Origin: Acaryochloris sp. CCMEE 5410
Lineage (GTDB): Bacteria > Cyanobacteriota > Cyanobacteriia > Thermosynechococcales > Thermosynechococcaceae
Direction of reading: 5' to 3'
Assembly: GCF_000238775.2 (NCBI RefSeq)
Contig: NZ_AFEJ02000001.1
Coordinates: 3,410,001 to 3,474,000, forward strand
Length of the DNA: 64,000 nt
Every line of letters begins with the position of its first letter. Within the stretch, counting starts at the first letter, position 1. The notes under the pieces are model-generated. The model was not told where the DNA came from, ran no database searches, and saw only the letters and a program-made list of their open reading frames with translations. The translations under genes were made by a program, and so were the position numbers. Of the stretch, positions 37,743 through 44,895 are shown piece by piece.

Positions 37743-37910
37743 GAATTAATCTCTTCTTAAGTCGGATAATTCTTATTTGTTAAGCCCCTCACTTTCCGGA
37801 TGTCACTTTTTTGTATCCTAAAATACAATTATTCATATCTAGACTTGATATTTCTTGTATAGAGACCCCATTAATCAATAAGTCATAATTCTTCAAAAAA
37901 ATACTTGTTT

Positions 37911-38036
37911 CTAGGGTTCCGATTTGAGAGCAATTTCGCCTTAAATGACTGGTCCAAGAGAAACAGCTAGCTTTTTACATATCTATTACCCACAGACATG
38001 TAGCTAGTGACACGGAGGGACAAAAGCCCGGGAGAA
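37911..38036 (+). ncRNA. Guanidine-I (ykkC) riboswitch aptamer
   Basis: The leader contains the conserved blocks of the ykkC/guanidine-I aptamer in order: CTAGGGTTCCG (37911-37921), ACTGGTCCAAGAGAAAC (about 37948-37964), a variable stem with CTAGCT/AGCTAG arms, then ACACGGAGGGACAAAAGCCC and GGGAGA (about 38010-38035). These are known to form the guanidinium-binding pocket. It begins about 275 bases before the gdmH start on the same strand. Ligand binding normally turns on genes for guanidine export or breakdown, which agrees with the genes that follow. Confidence 0.93.
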
Positions 38037-38088
38037 TCAACGTTCACCGTACATTCGGTAATGATTGGCTCCGCGGGTTTTGTATTTT
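38022..38088 (+). terminator. Riboswitch-controlled intrinsic terminator (expression platform)
   Basis: The 3' end of the aptamer, AAAAGCCCGGGAGAATC (38022-38038), can pair with GATTGGCTCCGCGGGTTTT (38063-38081) around an inner hairpin ACCG/CGGT (38046-38059). A T-rich tail TTTTGTATTTT follows. Because the left arm is also part of the aptamer, the two folds exclude each other. The expected logic is an ON switch: guanidine stabilises the aptamer and blocks the terminator. Confidence 0.8.
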
Positions 38089-38184
38089 AAATGGACACGT
38101 CTCATCTTCCTCTAAAATGGCTGAGAAACAACATGAAGAAAGAAATTAACGTGACGAAGTAAAAACCCTAAATTTTCCGATATT

Positions 38185-39381
38185 ATGGCTGAAAACTCGA
38201 CCTTTGGTCCTCCCAATTCTGATCCTAATTTTTCGTCCACTGAGGCTAATCGTGCTTTAGAGAAAGAAGCACAATTGCCCCTCACGGGCTGGCAACAAGA
38301 AGTTGACCGAGGATTAGAACTGGGGTTAGAAGCGGCGGCTAGTATTCGCGATCGGAGCATCCCCACCTTTTCGCGAGGCGAGCTGCCCCACTATGCGGGC
38401 ATCAACACCTTCCTCAAAGCGCCTTACCTAGAAGATGTGCGTAAAGTCGGCGAATACGATATTGCTGTAGTAGGCGTTCCCCATGACTCCGGCACCACTT
38501 ATCGTCCCGGCACCCGCTTCGGCCCCCAGGGTATTCGTCGGATTTCAGCCCTGTATACCCCCTACAATTTCGAGCTGGGTATCGATTTACGAGAGCAGAT
38601 CACTCTCTGCGATGTGGGTGATATCTTCACCATCCCCGCCAACAATGAGAAATCCTTTGACCAAATTTCCAAAGGGGTCGCCCATATCTTCAGTTCTGGC
38701 GCCTTCCCCATTATCTTAGGGGGCGATCACTCCATTGGCTTCCCCACCGTTCGCGGCGTCTGTCGCCATCTAGGCGATAAGAAAGTCGGTATTATCCATT
38801 TCGATCGCCATGTGGATACCCAAGAAACGGACCTCGACGAGCGCATGCATACCTGCCCTTGGTTTCATGCCACCAATATGATCAATGCTCCGGCTAAAAA
38901 CCTAGTGCAATTAGGCATTGGCGGTTGGCAAGTGCCTCGACAAGGGGTCAAGGTCTGCCGAGAGCGAGCCACGAATATTTTGACCGTCACAGATATTACC
39001 GAAATTGGTCTAGATGCTGCCGTTGACTTCGCCTTAGAACGAGCCTTAGACGGCACAGACTGCGTTTATATCAGCTTTGATATTGACTGTATTGATGCCG
39101 GGTTTGTCCCCGGTACGGGCTGGCCAGAACCCGGCGGTCTGATGCCCCGAGAAGCCCTCTATATGCTGGGCAAGATTATTCAAAAAGCCCCCGTCTGCGG
39201 CTTGGAAATCGTTGAAGTGTCACCCCCTTACGACATCAGCGATATGACCTCGCTGATGGCCACTCGGGTCATTTGCGATACCATGGCCCATCTTGTGCTG
39301 TCGGGACAACTTCCTCGGCAACAAGCACCAGACTATATTCATCCTGAAGCCAATATGGACGTTGGTTCTGAGTGGGTTTAG
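38185..39381 (+). CDS. gdmH: Guanidine hydrolase (Ni-dependent ureohydrolase-family enzyme)
   Basis: A 398-residue member of the arginase/agmatinase fold. Metal ligands are H182 (GGDHS), D207, H209 and D211 (HFDRHVDTQ), and D299 and D301 (FDIDCID). Features unlike agmatinase are the long N-terminal extension, HFDRHVD in place of HFDAHxD, and PGTGWPEPGG (W313) in place of GTPEPGG. These match what I recall of the Synechocystis Sll1077 group, which hydrolyses guanidine to urea and ammonia with nickel. The guanidine-I riboswitch upstream and HypA/HypB-like genes directly downstream (3-bp gap) support this strongly. Automatic annotation would probably say agmatinase, which I think is wrong. Confidence 0.9.
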   Translation: MAENSTFGPPNSDPNFSSTEANRALEKEAQLPLTGWQQEVDRGLELGLEAAASIRDRSIPTFSRGELPHYAGINTFLKAPYLEDVRKVGEYDIAVVGVPHDSGTTYRPGTRFGPQGIRRISALYTPYNFELGIDLREQITLCDVGDIFTIPANNEKSFDQISKGVAHIFSSGAFPIILGGDHSIGFPTVRGVCRHLGDKKVGIIHFDRHVDTQETDLDERMHTCPWFHATNMINAPAKNLVQLGIGGWQVPRQGVKVCRERATNILTVTDITEIGLDAAVDFALERALDGTDCVYISFDIDCIDAGFVPGTGWPEPGGLMPREALYMLGKIIQKAPVCGLEIVEVSPPYDISDMTSLMATRVICDTMAHLVLSGQLPRQQAPDYIHPEANMDVGSEWV

Positions 39382-39384
39382 GTC

Positions 39385-39765
39385 ATGCATGAAACAGACA
39401 TGACCAAAGCCCTAATCATGACGGTCAAGGACTGGTACGATTCCCAGCCTGAAGATCCACAAATCACCAAAATTCATTTGGTCGTGGGTCGGTTTACCTG
39501 TGTGGAACCTGTCAGCTTGCAGTTTGCCTATGAAGTCCAAACCCGAGACACCTTCCTAGCGGGGACAGAGCTGGTGATTCGAGAGACGCCTTTAATCGCC
39601 TTTTGCCACCCCTGTCAGCAGGAATATTCTCCTGAAATGGGCTTGCAATATGCCTGTCCCACGTGTGGAGTCCCCATGGAAGACATCCGGTCCGGCCGCG
39701 AGCTCAAAATTGACCATATCGAATATTGTTCTGATTCAGCCCAAACCTATGCACCAAACTGTTGA
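39385..39765 (+). CDS. HypA-like nickel chaperone for guanidine hydrolase
   Basis: A 126-residue HypA-family protein. The N-terminal MHE (Ni-binding Met1-His2-Glu3) is present, as is the zinc site C74xxC77...C91xxC94 (CHPC and CPTC). HypA normally delivers nickel to [NiFe]-hydrogenase, but no hydrogenase genes are nearby. The gene sits 3 bp after gdmH and overlaps the HypB-like gene by 17 bp, so it most likely serves GdmH, as its Synechocystis counterparts (sll1078/sll1079) are reported to do. Confidence 0.9.
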
Positions 39766-40447
39766 CGCCGCCCTCGGCATTAACCTCTTACATGCCAATC
39801 AAGAAGGGGCCGATCACAACCAGGCTCACTTTAACGAATGGGGAGTGACCTGCTTTAACGTCATGAGCAGTCCAGGCGCAGGCAAAACAGTGCTGTTAGA
39901 GAAAACCCTGGCAGCTCTCAGCCCAGACGTCAATCTGGCCGTCATCGAAGGGGACATGACCACCGAACTGGATGCTGATCGCTTGCGAGCTTACGATGTC
40001 CCCGTGGTGGCAATTAACACGGGGCGGTCCTGCCATCTGGATGCCAAGATGGTCGCGGGCGGTATCCACCAATTGGAGCATTGCACCAATCCTAGAGAAC
40101 TGGATTTAGTGCTAGTAGAAAATGTCGGAAATCTTGTATGTCCGGCAGAATTTGAAGTAGGGGAACATGCCAAAGTTGCCCTACTCAGCGTGACAGAGGG
40201 GGAAGATAAGCCGCTGAAATATCCAGTGATGTTTCAAGCAGCCGATTGTCTGTTGGTGACCAAGATAGATTTAGTTCCTTATCTAAATATTGACATTGAG
40301 CAGATTGTCCAAAATGTCCGTCAGCTCAATCCCCATGCCACGATTTTGCCAGTGTCTGCCCAAACAGGGACAGGGCTTGCTGAATGGTTTGAGTGGGTGC
40401 GTCAACAGGTCGCCCAACCGAGTCGGACTGCAGTCGGTAGTCACTAG
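39749..40447 (+). CDS. HypB-like GTPase, nickel insertion for guanidine hydrolase
   Basis: This gene encodes 232 residues from ATG 39749; the frame opens earlier at 39650, but that part lies in the HypA gene and has no HypB similarity. The P-loop is SPGAGKT (41-47). The GTPase-domain metal site [10 protein letters not shown] (C95, H96) and [18 protein letters not shown] (C131) are as in HypB, followed by TKIDLVPYL (G4-type NKxD variant). The N-terminal His-rich nickel store of some HypB proteins is absent. It hydrolyses GTP to drive nickel transfer together with the HypA partner. It lies 27 bp upstream of the ABC binding protein, so it is in the same operon. Confidence 0.9.
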
Positions 40448-40474
40448 TTGTTTGTAAGCAGGTAAAAGATATCT

Positions 40475-41503
40475 ATGAAGCGACGCAATTTTTTATCCTT
40501 ATGTTTGGTTTTTCTCTGCAGCTTACTGCTGACCATCAGCTGTAGCTCCTCCCCCGAGACAACGACTGATTCTTCGGCTGGTGCTGGAGAGCCAGTCGTG
40601 ATTGGTTACAGTAACTGGGCAGGCTGGTGGCCCTGGGCCATTGCCGAACAAGAAGGGCTATTTGAAAAAAATAACGCTAATGTCAAGCTCAAATGGTTTG
40701 ATAATTACACCACTTCGATGGAAGCCTTGGCAGCGGGCCAATTGGATGGAAATTGTCAAACCCTCAACGACACAATTTCTTTTGCGGGCAGTGCCACCAA
40801 AGGTGAGGTCGCGGTTTTAGTTAATGACAACTCCGCCGGAAACGACAAGATTATCGTTACTGCCGAGATTAATAGCATTCAAGACTTAAAGGGCAAGAAA
40901 GTGGCCGTTGAAGAAGGGGTAGTGGATGACTTTTTGTTGACCTTGGCCCTGGAAGAAAACGGCATGAAGCGGGACGATGTGGAGATCGTCGGCTTGGAAA
41001 CAGGTAAAGCCGTGACGGCTTTCGTCGCAGGCAAAGCCGATGCTGTCGGCGCGTTCCCACCATTCTGGGCAACAGCGTTAAAGCGGGAAGGCAGTAAAGA
41101 GCTGATTTCGTCCAAAGAATTTCCAGGGGCCATTCCAGACTTACTCGTGGTAACCCAAGATTTAGTGGATAATCGCCCCGATCAAGTGCAGGCCTTGGTC
41201 GATACCTGGTTTGATATCCTAGCCTTCATGGATGAGAATCCCCAAAAAGCCGATGAAATCATGGCCAAGCGAGCCGGGGTCTCCTTGGAAGAAATGCAAC
41301 AATTCAAAGAAGGAACACGCTTCTTTAGCCTCGAAGATAATCTTGAAGCCTTCTCGGATGGGGAAGGCATGAAGCATATGCCGTTTGCCGCCAAACGAAT
41401 GGCCAAGTTTATGGTGGATGTCGGTTTCATTGAGGAGGCACCTGACTTAACCAAAGTGCTGGATGATCAATTTGTAAGGGCATACAAAGAAAAGCAAGCA
41501 TAG
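40475..41503 (+). CDS. ABC transporter substrate-binding lipoprotein, probable guanidine uptake
   Basis: A 342-residue binding protein of the NrtA/SsuA/TauA class. The leader MKRRNFLSLC ends in a lipobox with C23 (TISCSS). The mature part has VVIGYSNWAGWWPWAIAEQEGLF, LDGNCQTLNDTI and LKGKKVAVEEG, typical of nitrate/sulfonate/taurine-type binding proteins. It follows the guanidine hydrolase and its chaperones in one transcription unit under a guanidine riboswitch, so guanidine is the most likely ligand. That is inference from context, since this fold binds many small compounds. An aromatic-rich pocket (NWAGWWPW) would suit a guanidinium cation. Confidence 0.85.
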   Translation: MKRRNFLSLCLVFLCSLLLTISCSSSPETTTDSSAGAGEPVVIGYSNWAGWWPWAIAEQEGLFEKNNANVKLKWFDNYTTSMEALAAGQLDGNCQTLNDTISFAGSATKGEVAVLVNDNSAGNDKIIVTAEINSIQDLKGKKVAVEEGVVDDFLLTLALEENGMKRDDVEIVGLETGKAVTAFVAGKADAVGAFPPFWATALKREGSKELISSKEFPGAIPDLLVVTQDLVDNRPDQVQALVDTWFDILAFMDENPQKADEIMAKRAGVSLEEMQQFKEGTRFFSLEDNLEAFSDGEGMKHMPFAAKRMAKFMVDVGFIEEAPDLTKVLDDQFVRAYKEKQA

Positions 41504-41512
41504 TATCTCTCT

Positions 41513-41540
41513 ATTTCTGGGGCTGGTCAGCCCCAGAAAT
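41513..41540 (+). promoter_or_regulatory. Intercistronic hairpin between binding protein and permease genes
   Basis: ATTTCTGGGGCTG pairs perfectly with CAGCCCCAGAAAT (13 bp, minimal loop). No T-run follows, so it is more likely an mRNA-stabilising or partial-termination element that keeps the binding-protein message more abundant than the permease message, as in other ABC operons. Confidence 0.6.
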
Positions 41541-41571
41541 ACTAGATTATTGATGTGTCCCCTGAGCGCTT

Positions 41572-42417
41572 ATGACCTCTAATGGATCAGCTCCCCCACC
41601 ACAACCCCACCATCAGTCGGGTGGCCTAAAGCCAACTACTTTCTGGCGCATTGCTGAGGATATTCCAGCCAATCTTAAGTGGGCGTTAACAGCAATTTCC
41701 ATCGCTCTGCCCTTGGGGCTGTGGTGGGGAGTTTCCAGTACCGGAGTTGTGAATCCTGACTTTTTACCTTCTCCTATCAAGGTGGGGCAGGCCTTAGTCG
41801 ATCTGCACTCGGATGGCTTTTTGGTCAAAGATACGTTGATGAGCTGTTTTAGGGTTGGTATTGGCTTTTTTCTCGCAGCCCTCATTTCTGCTCCGATTGG
41901 CGTTGCTATGGGAACGTTTACCAGTATTCGGTCTCTATTAGAACCGATTATTGGCATTGTTCGCTATATGCCAGCACCTGCTTTTATCCCATTGCTGTTG
42001 ATCTATTTAGGGATAGAAGAACTCCCTAAAATTACGCTTATTTTCATCGGGACGGTGTTCTTCAACATCTTGATGATTATGGACGCCGTCAAGTTTATCC
42101 CCAAAGAGTTGCTGGAAACAACCTATACCCTAGGCGGAAGACGTCACCAAGTGCTCTTTCAGGTGATTACCCCCTATGTGATTCCCAATATTTTGGATGC
42201 CTTTCGGGTCAATATGGCCGCCTCTTGGAATTTAGTGGTGGTTGCCGAATTAATTGCTGCCAACGAAGGCTTAGGAAAACGCATTGAACTGGCTGAAAAA
42301 TTCTTTAGGACTGATGATATTTTTGCCTGCCTCATTGTGCTGGGACTGATTGGATTTTTTATTGATTTATTGTTCCGCTGGCTACTCCGCTTTTCCTGCC
42401 CTTGGGCCATTGACTAA
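41572..42417 (+). CDS. ABC transporter permease (SsuC/TauC/NrtB type)
   Basis: A 281-residue inner-membrane permease with about six helices. The cytosolic coupling motif is seen in the stretch LLETTYTLGGRRHQVLFQVITPYVIPN (EAA-type loop, about 193-219; the usual Ala-Gly is Leu-Gly here). The short N-terminus is Pro/His-rich. It forms the channel of the importer with the neighbouring lipoprotein and ATPase; the ATPase starts 9 bp later. As with the binding protein, guanidine is the proposed substrate from operon context. ATG at 41572 is the only good start. Confidence 0.88.
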   Translation: MTSNGSAPPPQPHHQSGGLKPTTFWRIAEDIPANLKWALTAISIALPLGLWWGVSSTGVVNPDFLPSPIKVGQALVDLHSDGFLVKDTLMSCFRVGIGFFLAALISAPIGVAMGTFTSIRSLLEPIIGIVRYMPAPAFIPLLLIYLGIEELPKITLIFIGTVFFNILMIMDAVKFIPKELLETTYTLGGRRHQVLFQVITPYVIPNILDAFRVNMAASWNLVVVAELIAANEGLGKRIELAEKFFRTDDIFACLIVLGLIGFFIDLLFRWLLRFSCPWAID

Positions 42418-42426
42418 CGAACCACC

Positions 42427-43203
42427 ATGCACTTAGAAGTTTCCCATCTGTATAAGCATTTCTCGACCCGTCAAGGGAAGCTGCTCGTGCTGAAAGATAT
42501 TAATCTGCATGTGGAGACGGGGGAGTTTGTTTGTGCGGTGGGAGCCTCAGGATCTGGCAAAACCACACTCCTGCGCATGGTGGCCGGGCTAGACACCGCG
42601 ACTTCAGGCAAAATCACCGTCGACGGACAGCCAGTCATTGGTCCGGGGGCCGATCGCGGCATGGTCTTTCAAAGCTATACCCTTTATCCCTGGCTGACCG
42701 TCGCCAAAAATGTGGGATTTGGCTTAAAACTCCAAGGGGTTGCCAAGCCTTTGCGTACTCAGCGAGTCGCTGAGTATCTAGACGTGGTGGGATTGTCTCA
42801 GTTTGCCGATGCATATCCCCGAGAATTGTCAGGAGGGATGAAACAGCGGGTTGCCATTGCCCGCGCCCTGGCTTCACAACCCAAAGTATTACTGATGGAC
42901 GAGCCGTTCGGGGCATTGGATGTGCAAACGAAAGAAACGATGCAGCAATTTTTGCTCGATTTATGGCGACGAACCGGCACCAGCATTTTAATGATTACCC
43001 ATGACGTGGAAGAAGCTATTTTCCTGTCACAGCGCATTTATGTGCTCACGGCTCGCCCTGGTTCGGTCCAACGAGAGATCGTGGTTAACTTACCCGCAGA
43101 GCGGACCTACACGATCAAACGTCAGTCCCTGTTTCAAGACTATCGAGATGAAATCATGGATCTGTTGCGGGAAACTCCAGACCTGAATCCAGTCATAGAG
43201 TAA
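42427..43203 (+). CDS. ABC transporter ATP-binding protein (SsuB/TauB/NrtD type)
   Basis: A 258-residue ATPase with all motifs intact: Walker A GASGSGKT (39-46), Q-loop Q82 (VFQSYTLYPWL), signature LSGGMKQ (134-140), Walker B LLMDEP (D158, E159), D-loop and the switch His (MITHDVEEA). It powers the importer formed with the two preceding genes. It is the last gene of the riboswitch operon and ends 7 bp from the convergent gene at 43211, leaving no space for a separate terminator. Confidence 0.92.
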   Translation: MHLEVSHLYKHFSTRQGKLLVLKDINLHVETGEFVCAVGASGSGKTTLLRMVAGLDTATSGKITVDGQPVIGPGADRGMVFQSYTLYPWLTVAKNVGFGLKLQGVAKPLRTQRVAEYLDVVGLSQFADAYPRELSGGMKQRVAIARALASQPKVLLMDEPFGALDVQTKETMQQFLLDLWRRTGTSILMITHDVEEAIFLSQRIYVLTARPGSVQREIVVNLPAERTYTIKRQSLFQDYRDEIMDLLRETPDLNPVIE

Positions 43204-43210
43204 AGCGCCG

Positions 43211-43762
43211 CTATCCTGGCTGCCGCTCTAGGGTGGCTTCCATCGTATTCAGAAGATAATGCTCGCTCATCATGCCGCTCGATAAGCGATAGCTATTCTC
43301 AGCAATGCGATGAAGCGTCTCAAAGCCGCTGCGGCGATCGCGATCGCCTAAAACCCAAAACCGCTGAACAATGGACTCGGGGCCAATCCAGCCTTCCCCT
43401 TCCACTTGGCCCAATTGGCTATGTTTAAGGACATAGGTATACCGCTGGTCGTTACTGCCTAAACGGCCCCGATATTGCATGATAATTTCTGAAGTGCCTT
43501 GACGAGCTACCGCTGATTCTTCCGGGAACAACAGCTTGGTTGCCATGGTAAACCAGCTGTCACAGTTCCAAGCCACGAGGGTGCGACCATGAATGGCAAC
43601 GGGGTCTTGGTTCCGTTCCATCCAAGTCCCTTTAAAAGTCCATCGGCCCGCATCCAATAAAAAGGTATGGGTCGCAGTGCCCCTATTGTCTGGCATTTCG
43701 TTAATGTAGGTGAGTCTTTGTCCTTCCCTTAGGATGCCCACGGGGTCAAGCCTCTGGATCAA
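43211..43762 (-). CDS. Protein of unknown function, translationally coupled to anmK
   Basis: The frame is open from 43846, but the first 28 codons would overlap the anmK coding end. I prefer the TTG at 43762, which overlaps the anmK stop as TTGA and gives 183 residues ([14 protein letters not shown]...). A GTG at 43741 is another option. The protein is soluble and rich in beta-strand-like segments with regularly spaced aromatics ([79 protein letters not shown]). That suggests a lipocalin-like barrel that binds a small molecule, but this is inference. No named family recognised. Confidence 0.6.
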
Positions 43763-44895
43763 ACAAGGTGTAATTCTCCCAGGAGAACCGGGCCAGCGGC
43801 ACCAGTCACCGTCGGCACGTTGCCAGGAATTTGCAGCTGTCGCCAATAGGCCAATACGGCAAATGCGATCGCTTCCTTCGCATCAGAATTCAACCCCAAA
43901 TTATCCGTCGTTAAGACAGTGCTACCGCCTAAGCGCTGCTGCAAACACTGCCGTAAATAACCATTGCGACTCCCACCTCCACAAAGGACGACCTGATCGG
44001 GCGGATGGGGTAAAAACTGGTCATAGTTGTAGACAATAGTGGCAGCAGTAAAGTCTGTCAGCGTCGCCAGCATATCTGCTGGACTAAGCTGATAAGGCGC
44101 TGCCGTTTGCAAACAGGTCTGTAAATAATCGGGACTAAATAACTCCCGTCCTGTGGACTTAGGGGGTGGCGCTTGGAAAAAAGGATGCTTCAGCCATTCT
44201 TCAATCAACGGCTGACAAGGACTGCCTTGAGCCGCCCAGGCTCCGTCGGCATCGTAGGTGAGTTCGCCCTGAGAAAAGTGCGCCACGGCCAAATCCATTA
44301 AGACATTGCCGGGGCCGGTGTCCCAACCTTTGACGCCAACGCCCAATTGGCTCGCATCAGTTAAAGGCGGTAGGTAGGTGACATTGCCAATCCCGCCAAT
44401 ATTTTGCACACAGCGATAGAACTCAGGATGGCTGAGCAAACAAATATCCAATTTGGAGACCAAGGGAGCACCCTGCCCCCCTGCCGCCATATCCGCTACC
44501 CGAAAATTGCTGACAGTATTGATGCCCGTTTGGTGGGCAATCACAGCACCGCGACCAATTTGGAGGGTATAGCCTAGGTTGCCCTGGGGAGGCCGATGAA
44601 AAACGGTTTGACCGTGGGAGCCAATCAGATCAGCTGCAGCCCCCTCGGCCTGAATCGACTGGGCCGCTCGAGCAAATTGCATTGCGATCGCATCATCCAA
44701 TCCCGCCAATGCCTCGATACTGAGGGGCTCTCCCCCACAGACCGCGAGAATTTGATTTCGGAGGGCATCGGGATAGGGATAGGTTTGCGATGCAATCAAA
44801 TCGACCTGTAAATCCAGTTCTCGGCCAGAAATATTCACCAGGGCGGCATCAATCCCATCCACGGAGGTCCCACTCATCAAGCCAATCACATACAT
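43759..44895 (-). CDS. anmK: Anhydro-N-acetylmuramic acid kinase
   Basis: A 378-residue sugar kinase of the ASKHA fold. The N-terminus [19 protein letters not shown] is diagnostic, with further signatures [49 protein letters not shown] and [11 protein letters not shown]. It converts 1,6-anhydro-MurNAc to MurNAc-6-phosphate in peptidoglycan recycling. It starts 2 bp after the Ser/Thr kinase-TPR gene and overlaps the next gene, so the three form an operon. The catalytic region is intact. Confidence 0.96.

Follow-up and report, generated by a model that had tools for sequence, protein, structure and literature searches.

We analyzed a window of 64,000 nucleotides from the cyanobacterium Acaryochloris sp. 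CCMEE 5410 (contig NZ_AFEJ02000001.1, positions 3,410,001 to 3,474,000). The window almost certainly contains the cyanobacterial gdmH-ghaA-ghaB-importer operon in its Acaryochloris-type form, with a predicted NtcA-type promoter, antitermination at a guanidine-I riboswitch, and guanidinium import. Here GdmH is a guanidine hydrolase, GhaA and GhaB are nickel chaperones that resemble HypA and HypB, and the importer is an ABC transporter. The operon is not new: it has been published, importer included (PMC8390497, PMC12186494, PMC10094980, PMC10119275, PMC12930504), and the window adds a member to a published gene set. We infer three additions: a conserved NtcA-type site before the aptamer, a terminator that overlaps the aptamer, and a second guanidine pathway for the importer family.

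We propose that transcription very likely starts at a promoter with an NtcA-type box at 37813, which would be active under nitrogen shortage. The RNA would then fold into a guanidine-I aptamer, as the match to the covariance model indicates. If guanidine is absent, the 3' end of the aptamer would pair downstream to form a terminator. If guanidine is present, the 3' end would be held in the aptamer and transcription would read through, as suggested by folding, conservation, and the description of this riboswitch class. The importer would take up guanidinium, GhaA and GhaB would load nickel into GdmH, and GdmH would convert guanidine to urea and ammonia. A urease encoded elsewhere would complete the breakdown.

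The standard models would label these proteins as agmatinase-like, hydrogenase maturation, and sulfonate transport. Such labels hide a nitrogen pathway of 26 of the 146 genomes in our sample of the phylum. Should both the nitrogen gate and the shared importer prove real, cells would be expected to use guanidine only when nitrogen is short, and guanidine importers could be distinguished from sulfonate importers by a sequence signature.

The hydrolase and its nickel chaperones

The hydrolase is far more similar to guanidinases than to agmatinases. It scores 793.5 bits against GdmH from Synechocystis (7esr, 7oi1) and 587.8 bits against the guanidinase from Nitrospira inopinata (9fek). The best other solved chain is a proclavaminate amidinohydrolase (166.8 bits); the guanidinobutyrase 3nio scores 156.8 bits, and chains described as agmatinases without qualification score at most 130.3 bits. 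This comparison of scores, rather than of positions in a tree, agrees with a preliminary description of the sequence, which had proposed a GdmH-type enzyme. The hydrolase's GGDHS, DRHVD, and SFDIDCIDA stretches, which we take to be the metal ligands of the arginase fold, align to 7esr, and SFDIDCIDA is identical there. The only other match to the hydrolase in the genome at E = 0.001 is distant, with 30% identity across a portion of the protein. Among the matches listed, the nearest named records are from metagenome-assembled genomes (MAGs) of Acaryochloris, at up to 96% identity. The close kinship with a characterized enzyme supports the view that this GdmH splits guanidine to urea and ammonia.

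Both of the operon's chaperones exceed the cut-offs of the equivalog models TIGR00100 and TIGR00073. The genome encodes a second HypB on another contig (C5, at 265198), with HypA adjoining; this second pair is 31% (HypA) and 41% (HypB) identical to the operon's pair. The large subunit of a NiFe hydrogenase (C5, 259202-260461) is about 5 kb from the second pair. Because the hydrogenase has its own pair nearby, the operon's HypA and HypB look dedicated to GdmH, and we rejected the idea that they are hydrogenase chaperones. The gene for urease alpha (C1:1095552) is away from the operon. The system had been described as self-contained, which is too strong, since its genes end at urea.

The importer

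It is very likely that the importer brings in guanidinium. The preliminary description had proposed this, and gene linkage, the shared riboswitch class, and the occurrence of the same importer family with carboxylase-pathway genes in three genomes (see below) support it. The importer had also been described as less explored, which is not correct: sll1080-1082 are in the guanidine-riboswitch operon of Synechocystis, and all were raised in a guanidine-producing strain (Wang 2021, PMC8390497). The importer is also described or proposed in a 2025 review (PMC12186494), a study of ammonium stress (PMC10094980), and a survey of picocyanobacteria (PMC10119275).

The binding protein scores above the cut-off for the SsuA_fam subfamily (TIGR01728) and below the cut-off for the SsuA equivalog. 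Its best paralog in the genome has 25% identity over part of its length. A structural model, built with 35 relatives, has a pLDDT of 90 and a pTM of 0.83. Among solved structures, its fold is closest to those of TauA (6ssy; 21% identity, TM 0.70 by query) and SsuA. An alignment of 61 relatives shows 70 positions with conservation of 97% or more. As placed by strand order, residues W48, W51, W54, Y78, N93, Q95, T96, D99, N117, D118, D124, and E146 are probably in or beside the strand-end loops, which is where the cleft of such folds should lie. Most of these 12 residues differ from those of TauA and SsuA; the exceptions are N93 (as in TauA), T96 (as in SsuA), and D124 (glutamate in SsuA). W48, W51, W54, D99, D118, D124, and E146 are at least 97% conserved and, where aligned, are not shared with TauA or SsuA, except for the glutamate of SsuA at position 124.

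Some genomes contain the binding protein and have no match to GdmH, including our genomes G156, G126, G113, and G088. In G156 and G126, an aptamer is followed by the importer and then by UAAP1, UAAP2, and a urea-carboxylase-type protein of 1205-1207 amino acids (1911-1925 bits; the cut-off is 1304). UAAP1/2 is presumably a carboxyguanidine deiminase. G156 has a second aptamer ahead of the UAAP genes. In G113, the importer is divergent from UAAP and carboxylase genes (1831 bits) that are preceded by an aptamer, and an allophanate hydrolase follows the importer. In G088, the importer and the carboxylase genes are on separate contigs, each behind an aptamer. A search at E = 1e-100 found no GdmH in the three genomes with linkage (G156, G126, and G113). 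In the guanidine-carboxylase pathway, the "urea carboxylase" is actually a guanidine carboxylase (PMC12186494). The linkage of the same importer family to this pathway, in genomes that appear to lack GdmH, gives independent support for guanidine as the cargo.

A quick tree of the importers (58 rows with all three genes, with coverage of 80% or more and identity of 45% or more) suggests that the importer may have moved between the hydrolase and carboxylase pathways. The window's importer is in a clade of 16 rows, all of which are linked to GdmH, while five rows without GdmH at the locus lie in a clade of 17 rows, of which the other 12 are linked to GdmH. The starred branches force at least three changes of label for the group of five. 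An approximately unbiased (AU) test did not reject a single origin of the three carboxylase-linked importers (p = 0.162).

We also noticed other importers at such loci. A divergent second importer (locus L111, 8367-11035 on the minus strand, from G055:C1; also L054, 9579-11228) has an ATPase that is 57-59% identical to the window's and a binding protein that is only ~27-28% identical. It has its own guanidine-I aptamer ahead of it in G055 and is placed after GdmH-HypA-HypB in L054, so it is possibly another lineage of guanidine importers. In an Acaryochloridaceae MAG (L005, 1298-4105 and 5339-7598), an importer of the 50% type is upstream of GdmH, instead of one of the 90% type downstream; this could be a replacement of the importer.

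The aptamer and a predicted terminator

The guanidine-I aptamer in the preliminary description is borne out by the covariance model (RF00442), with a score above the gathering score of 63 bits; the operon had been taken to start at 37911, which is 11 nt inside the aptamer. This is the sole Rfam match above the gathering score in the window, and it is the sole match to RF00442 found in the 8.09 Mb genome (150 of 299 candidates were scored).

Downstream, the RNA is predicted to form a terminator-like hairpin (38020-38083) with a minimum free energy (MFE) of -27.2 kcal/mol (z = -3.87; 1 of 200 shuffles was equally good). The aptamer's conserved 3' end, ACAAAAGCCCGGGAG, doubles as the 5' arm of this hairpin, which makes the two folds mutually exclusive. 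When the whole leader was folded alone, the terminator was preferred over the aptamer. In 58 of 70 loci (window included), the equivalent arm pairs with a T-flanked stretch downstream, beating all 30 shuffles. A simple scan for promoters and terminators gave nothing above its shuffles, and it missed the long hairpin. A terminator that overlaps the aptamer in this way fits antitermination: since both folds need the same arm, guanidine is expected to turn the operon on.

Among the GdmH loci, the switch seems to have been lost or moved at times. The loci without an aptamer by motif or Rfam are L004, L016, L019, L027, L028, L032, L035, L053, L074, and L076; one of these, an Acaryochloris contig, has a hydrolase that is 96% identical.

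A conserved NtcA-type box

Promoters that are activated by NtcA have the layout GTAN8TAC, 22 nt, and TAN3T. Upstream of the aptamer, the window contains GTAN8TAC, which we take to be the consensus for NtcA, and the TA of a predicted extended -10 begins after 22 nt (the last T of TAN3T is a C). To be counted, a locus had to have the aptamer motif and at least 200 nt upstream. Of these 68 loci, 51 have GTAN8TAC in the 260 nt that precede the aptamer; 200 mononucleotide shuffles gave a mean of 5.2 and a maximum of 12 such loci, and nine control motifs were present in 0 to 8 loci. The first box is 56 to 234 nt ahead of the aptamer (median 88), and the eight bases inside it vary between loci.

Across all 51 boxed loci, TA occurs at exactly 22 nt from the box in 39, and the next most common spacing, 28 nt, is seen in 20; TGNTA is at the 22-nt position in 31. 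The full TAN3T was counted in 46 of the boxed loci and is present at spacing 22 in 10. At spacings of 21-24 it is found in 13/46, which is within the range of the shuffles (mean 7.9, maximum 17). Of six leaders without GdmH, four also carry the box ahead of the aptamer (L106, L107, L109, and L110) and two do not (L105 and L108). There was no box in three tested stretches from the aptamer-less loci L114 and L115. The Acaryochloris genome encodes ntcA (373.9 bits, cut-off 245).

The conserved putative NtcA box and the aptamer together suggest an AND gate for nitrogen starvation and guanidine. We lean slightly towards a broader view: that two inputs in series (an NtcA promoter and guanidine-I antitermination) are conserved in cyanobacteria, and that the importer is an interchangeable module that moved between the hydrolase and carboxylase pathways. 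We did not find a link between NtcA and guanidine or gdmH in the CC-licensed PMC literature, which was covered in part. Similarly, we found no statement, in the available parts of CC-licensed PMC papers, of the conserved NtcA-type box or of cyanobacteria using the importer in two pathways; key papers lie outside that set.

Distribution of the operon

We examined the 80 nearest GdmH loci, which are the best 80 of at least 573 and hence are a biased sample of related loci. Because the order and strand of the six genes are kept in 48 of the 80, this arrangement is not due to chance. The others include three with all six genes in another order, six with other arrangements, and ten that were set aside because their flanks were too short to judge.

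In the sample of 146 genomes from the phylum, 52 contain RF00442, 26 contain GdmH at E = 1e-100, and 27 contain the binding protein at E = 1e-60. The aptamer is within 600 nt upstream of 24 of the 26 GdmH genes, and the binding protein is within 6 kb of 22 of them. In Picosynechococcus-type genomes (L019, G086, and G111), the six genes are rearranged with GdmH last, and no aptamer was found.

Some loci have GdmH, HypA, and HypB and no importer in the flank examined, including L113 (2318-6612, in G039), L027, L033, L034, and L052. In small-genome members of the phylum (family f24, ~2 Mb), an aptamer is directly before a 105-amino-acid protein (L116, 2636-3105, and L117, 2674-3155). The protein from L116 scores 125 bits (cut-off 126) against SugE, a type of guanidinium exporter.

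Comparison to known systems

The operon sll1077-sll1082 of Synechocystis sp. PCC 6803 has the same genes (gdmH-ghaA-ghaB and the importer) and a guanidine-I riboswitch (PMC10094980, PMC8390497). It is from another organism, and the likeness is in published gene content, not in the gaps or the leader. The guanidinase operon of Nitrospira inopinata likewise has a guanidine-I riboswitch and a related hydrolase, but it has an APC permease in place of the ABC importer and lacks nickel chaperones (PMC11410670). Guanidine carboxylase operons (carboxylase, UAAP1/2, and allophanate hydrolase) share the aptamer and, in three cyanobacterial genomes, the importer family; they rely on ATP-dependent carboxylation instead of direct hydrolysis. 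The sulfonate importers TauABC and SsuABC have the fold and the ABC architecture in common with the window's importer, but the binding protein is ~21% identical and has a signature of acidic residues and tryptophans in the pocket loops.

Alternative explanations

Could the hydrolase be an agmatinase or guanidinobutyrase that feeds the breakdown of polyamines or arginine, with the riboswitch being incidental? The hydrolase scores 171.4 bits against the agmatinase equivalog TIGR01230, and because it misses the cut-off (174.3 bits) by only 3 bits, it is usually labelled as an agmatinase. Also, a role as a 4-guanidinobutyrase was proposed earlier for Sll1077 (PMC2242806). However, Sll1077 was later demonstrated to prefer guanidine (PMC8390497), the guanidine-I aptamer is adjacent in 24 of 26 genomes with GdmH, and the gap in scores between the two solved guanidinases and the other solved structures led us to reject this identity; we consider it extremely improbable. 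It is also quite unlikely, if less so, that the ABC genes serve the import of another compound (taurine, sulfonate, nitrate, or urea) and just happen to be in the operon. The SsuA_fam assignment, the resemblance to TauA and SsuA, and the GdmH loci without an importer would fit another cargo. On the other hand, the binding protein is far below the cut-offs for taurine (TIGR01729, 59.7 vs. 304.25 bits) and for urea-type proteins (TIGR03427, 155.3 vs. 333.9 bits), its conserved tryptophan and acidic residues are mostly not those of TauA or SsuA, and in three genomes members of the family are linked to genes of a second guanidine pathway. Given these scores and residues, we rejected the default view of an importer for sulfonate, taurine, or urea, and we prefer guanidinium.

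The GTAN8TAC box might belong to another regulator, or it might be inherited sequence without a function. The assignment to NtcA is based on sequence, the loci are related so that their counts are not independent, and the full TAN3T is missing from the window and, at spacings of 21-24, is within the range of the shuffles. Yet the box far exceeds the shuffles and the control motifs, its inner bases vary, and the TA is usually at exactly 22 nt, so we view a box without NtcA as unlikely, while giving it more weight than either alternative above. The Synechocystis operon is repressed by excess ammonium, but this response depends on the protease Slr1821, and the ntcA transcript was unchanged in the wild type (PMC10094980); because of this, NtcA control stays an inference. 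The available parts of that study do not give the operon as a target of NtcA. Other observations also count against our overall proposal: the box is missing from 17 of the 68 loci; the terminator pairing is not better than shuffles in 12 of the 70 leaders; 13 of the 80 loci have GdmH and the chaperones without an importer in the flank examined; and neither the motif nor Rfam identified an aptamer in 10 of 81 loci, including the Acaryochloris contig L004 (11 loci lack the core motif, and Rfam recovered the aptamer in one of these, L078).

Layout of the operon

According to the list of open reading frames (ORFs) for the window, six same-strand genes follow the aptamer (Table 1). Pfam and NCBIfam assignments concur with the gene identities in the preliminary description, and matches to the covariance model, sequences, and solved structures support what it proposed for sensing, nickel loading, and hydrolysis. 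Its gaps of 3, -17, 27, 68, and 9 bp match exactly, given that HypB starts at 39749. The longest ORF for HypB (265 amino acids) opens at 39650, and because the match to the HypB model begins only at residue 41, the start is probably the ATG at 39749.

Table 1. Features of the operon and its leader (window coordinates).
Feature	Coordinates	Strand	Evidence or remarks
Putative NtcA-type box, GTATCCTAAAATAC (GTA-N8-TAC)	37813..37826	+	Sequence; conserved upstream of the aptamer
Predicted extended -10, TGATATTTC	37846..37854	+	TA begins after 22 nt from the box
Guanidine-I (ykkC) riboswitch aptamer	37900..38036	+	RF00442, 75.2 bits, E = 1.5e-11, model positions 1-107 complete
Predicted expression platform: terminator-like hairpin (38020-38083) and U-rich tail	38020..38090	+	Folding of RNA 38016-38090
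GdmH-type Ni-dependent guanidine hydrolase, 398 aa	38185..39381	+	7esr/7oi1, 793.5 bits; PF00491
HypA-like nickel chaperone (GhaA), 126 aa	39385..39765	+	TIGR00100, 111.8 bits (cut-off 88.1)
HypB-like GTPase nickel chaperone (GhaB), 232 aa	39749..40447	+	TIGR00073, 307.2 bits (cut-off 121.2); overlaps HypA by 17 bp
Importer substrate-binding lipoprotein, 342 aa	40475..41503	+	TIGR01728 (SsuA_fam), 284.1 bits (cut-off 163.5); Cys23 conserved
Importer permease, 281 aa	41572..42417	+	PF00528, 79.5 bits
Importer ATPase, 258 aa	42427..43203	+	PF00005, 114.5 bits

Beyond the operon, an ORF of 211 amino acids without a Pfam family (43211-43846) is on the opposite strand and ends 8 nt past the operon's last stop codon. 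The operon and this ORF converge, with almost no spacer between them.

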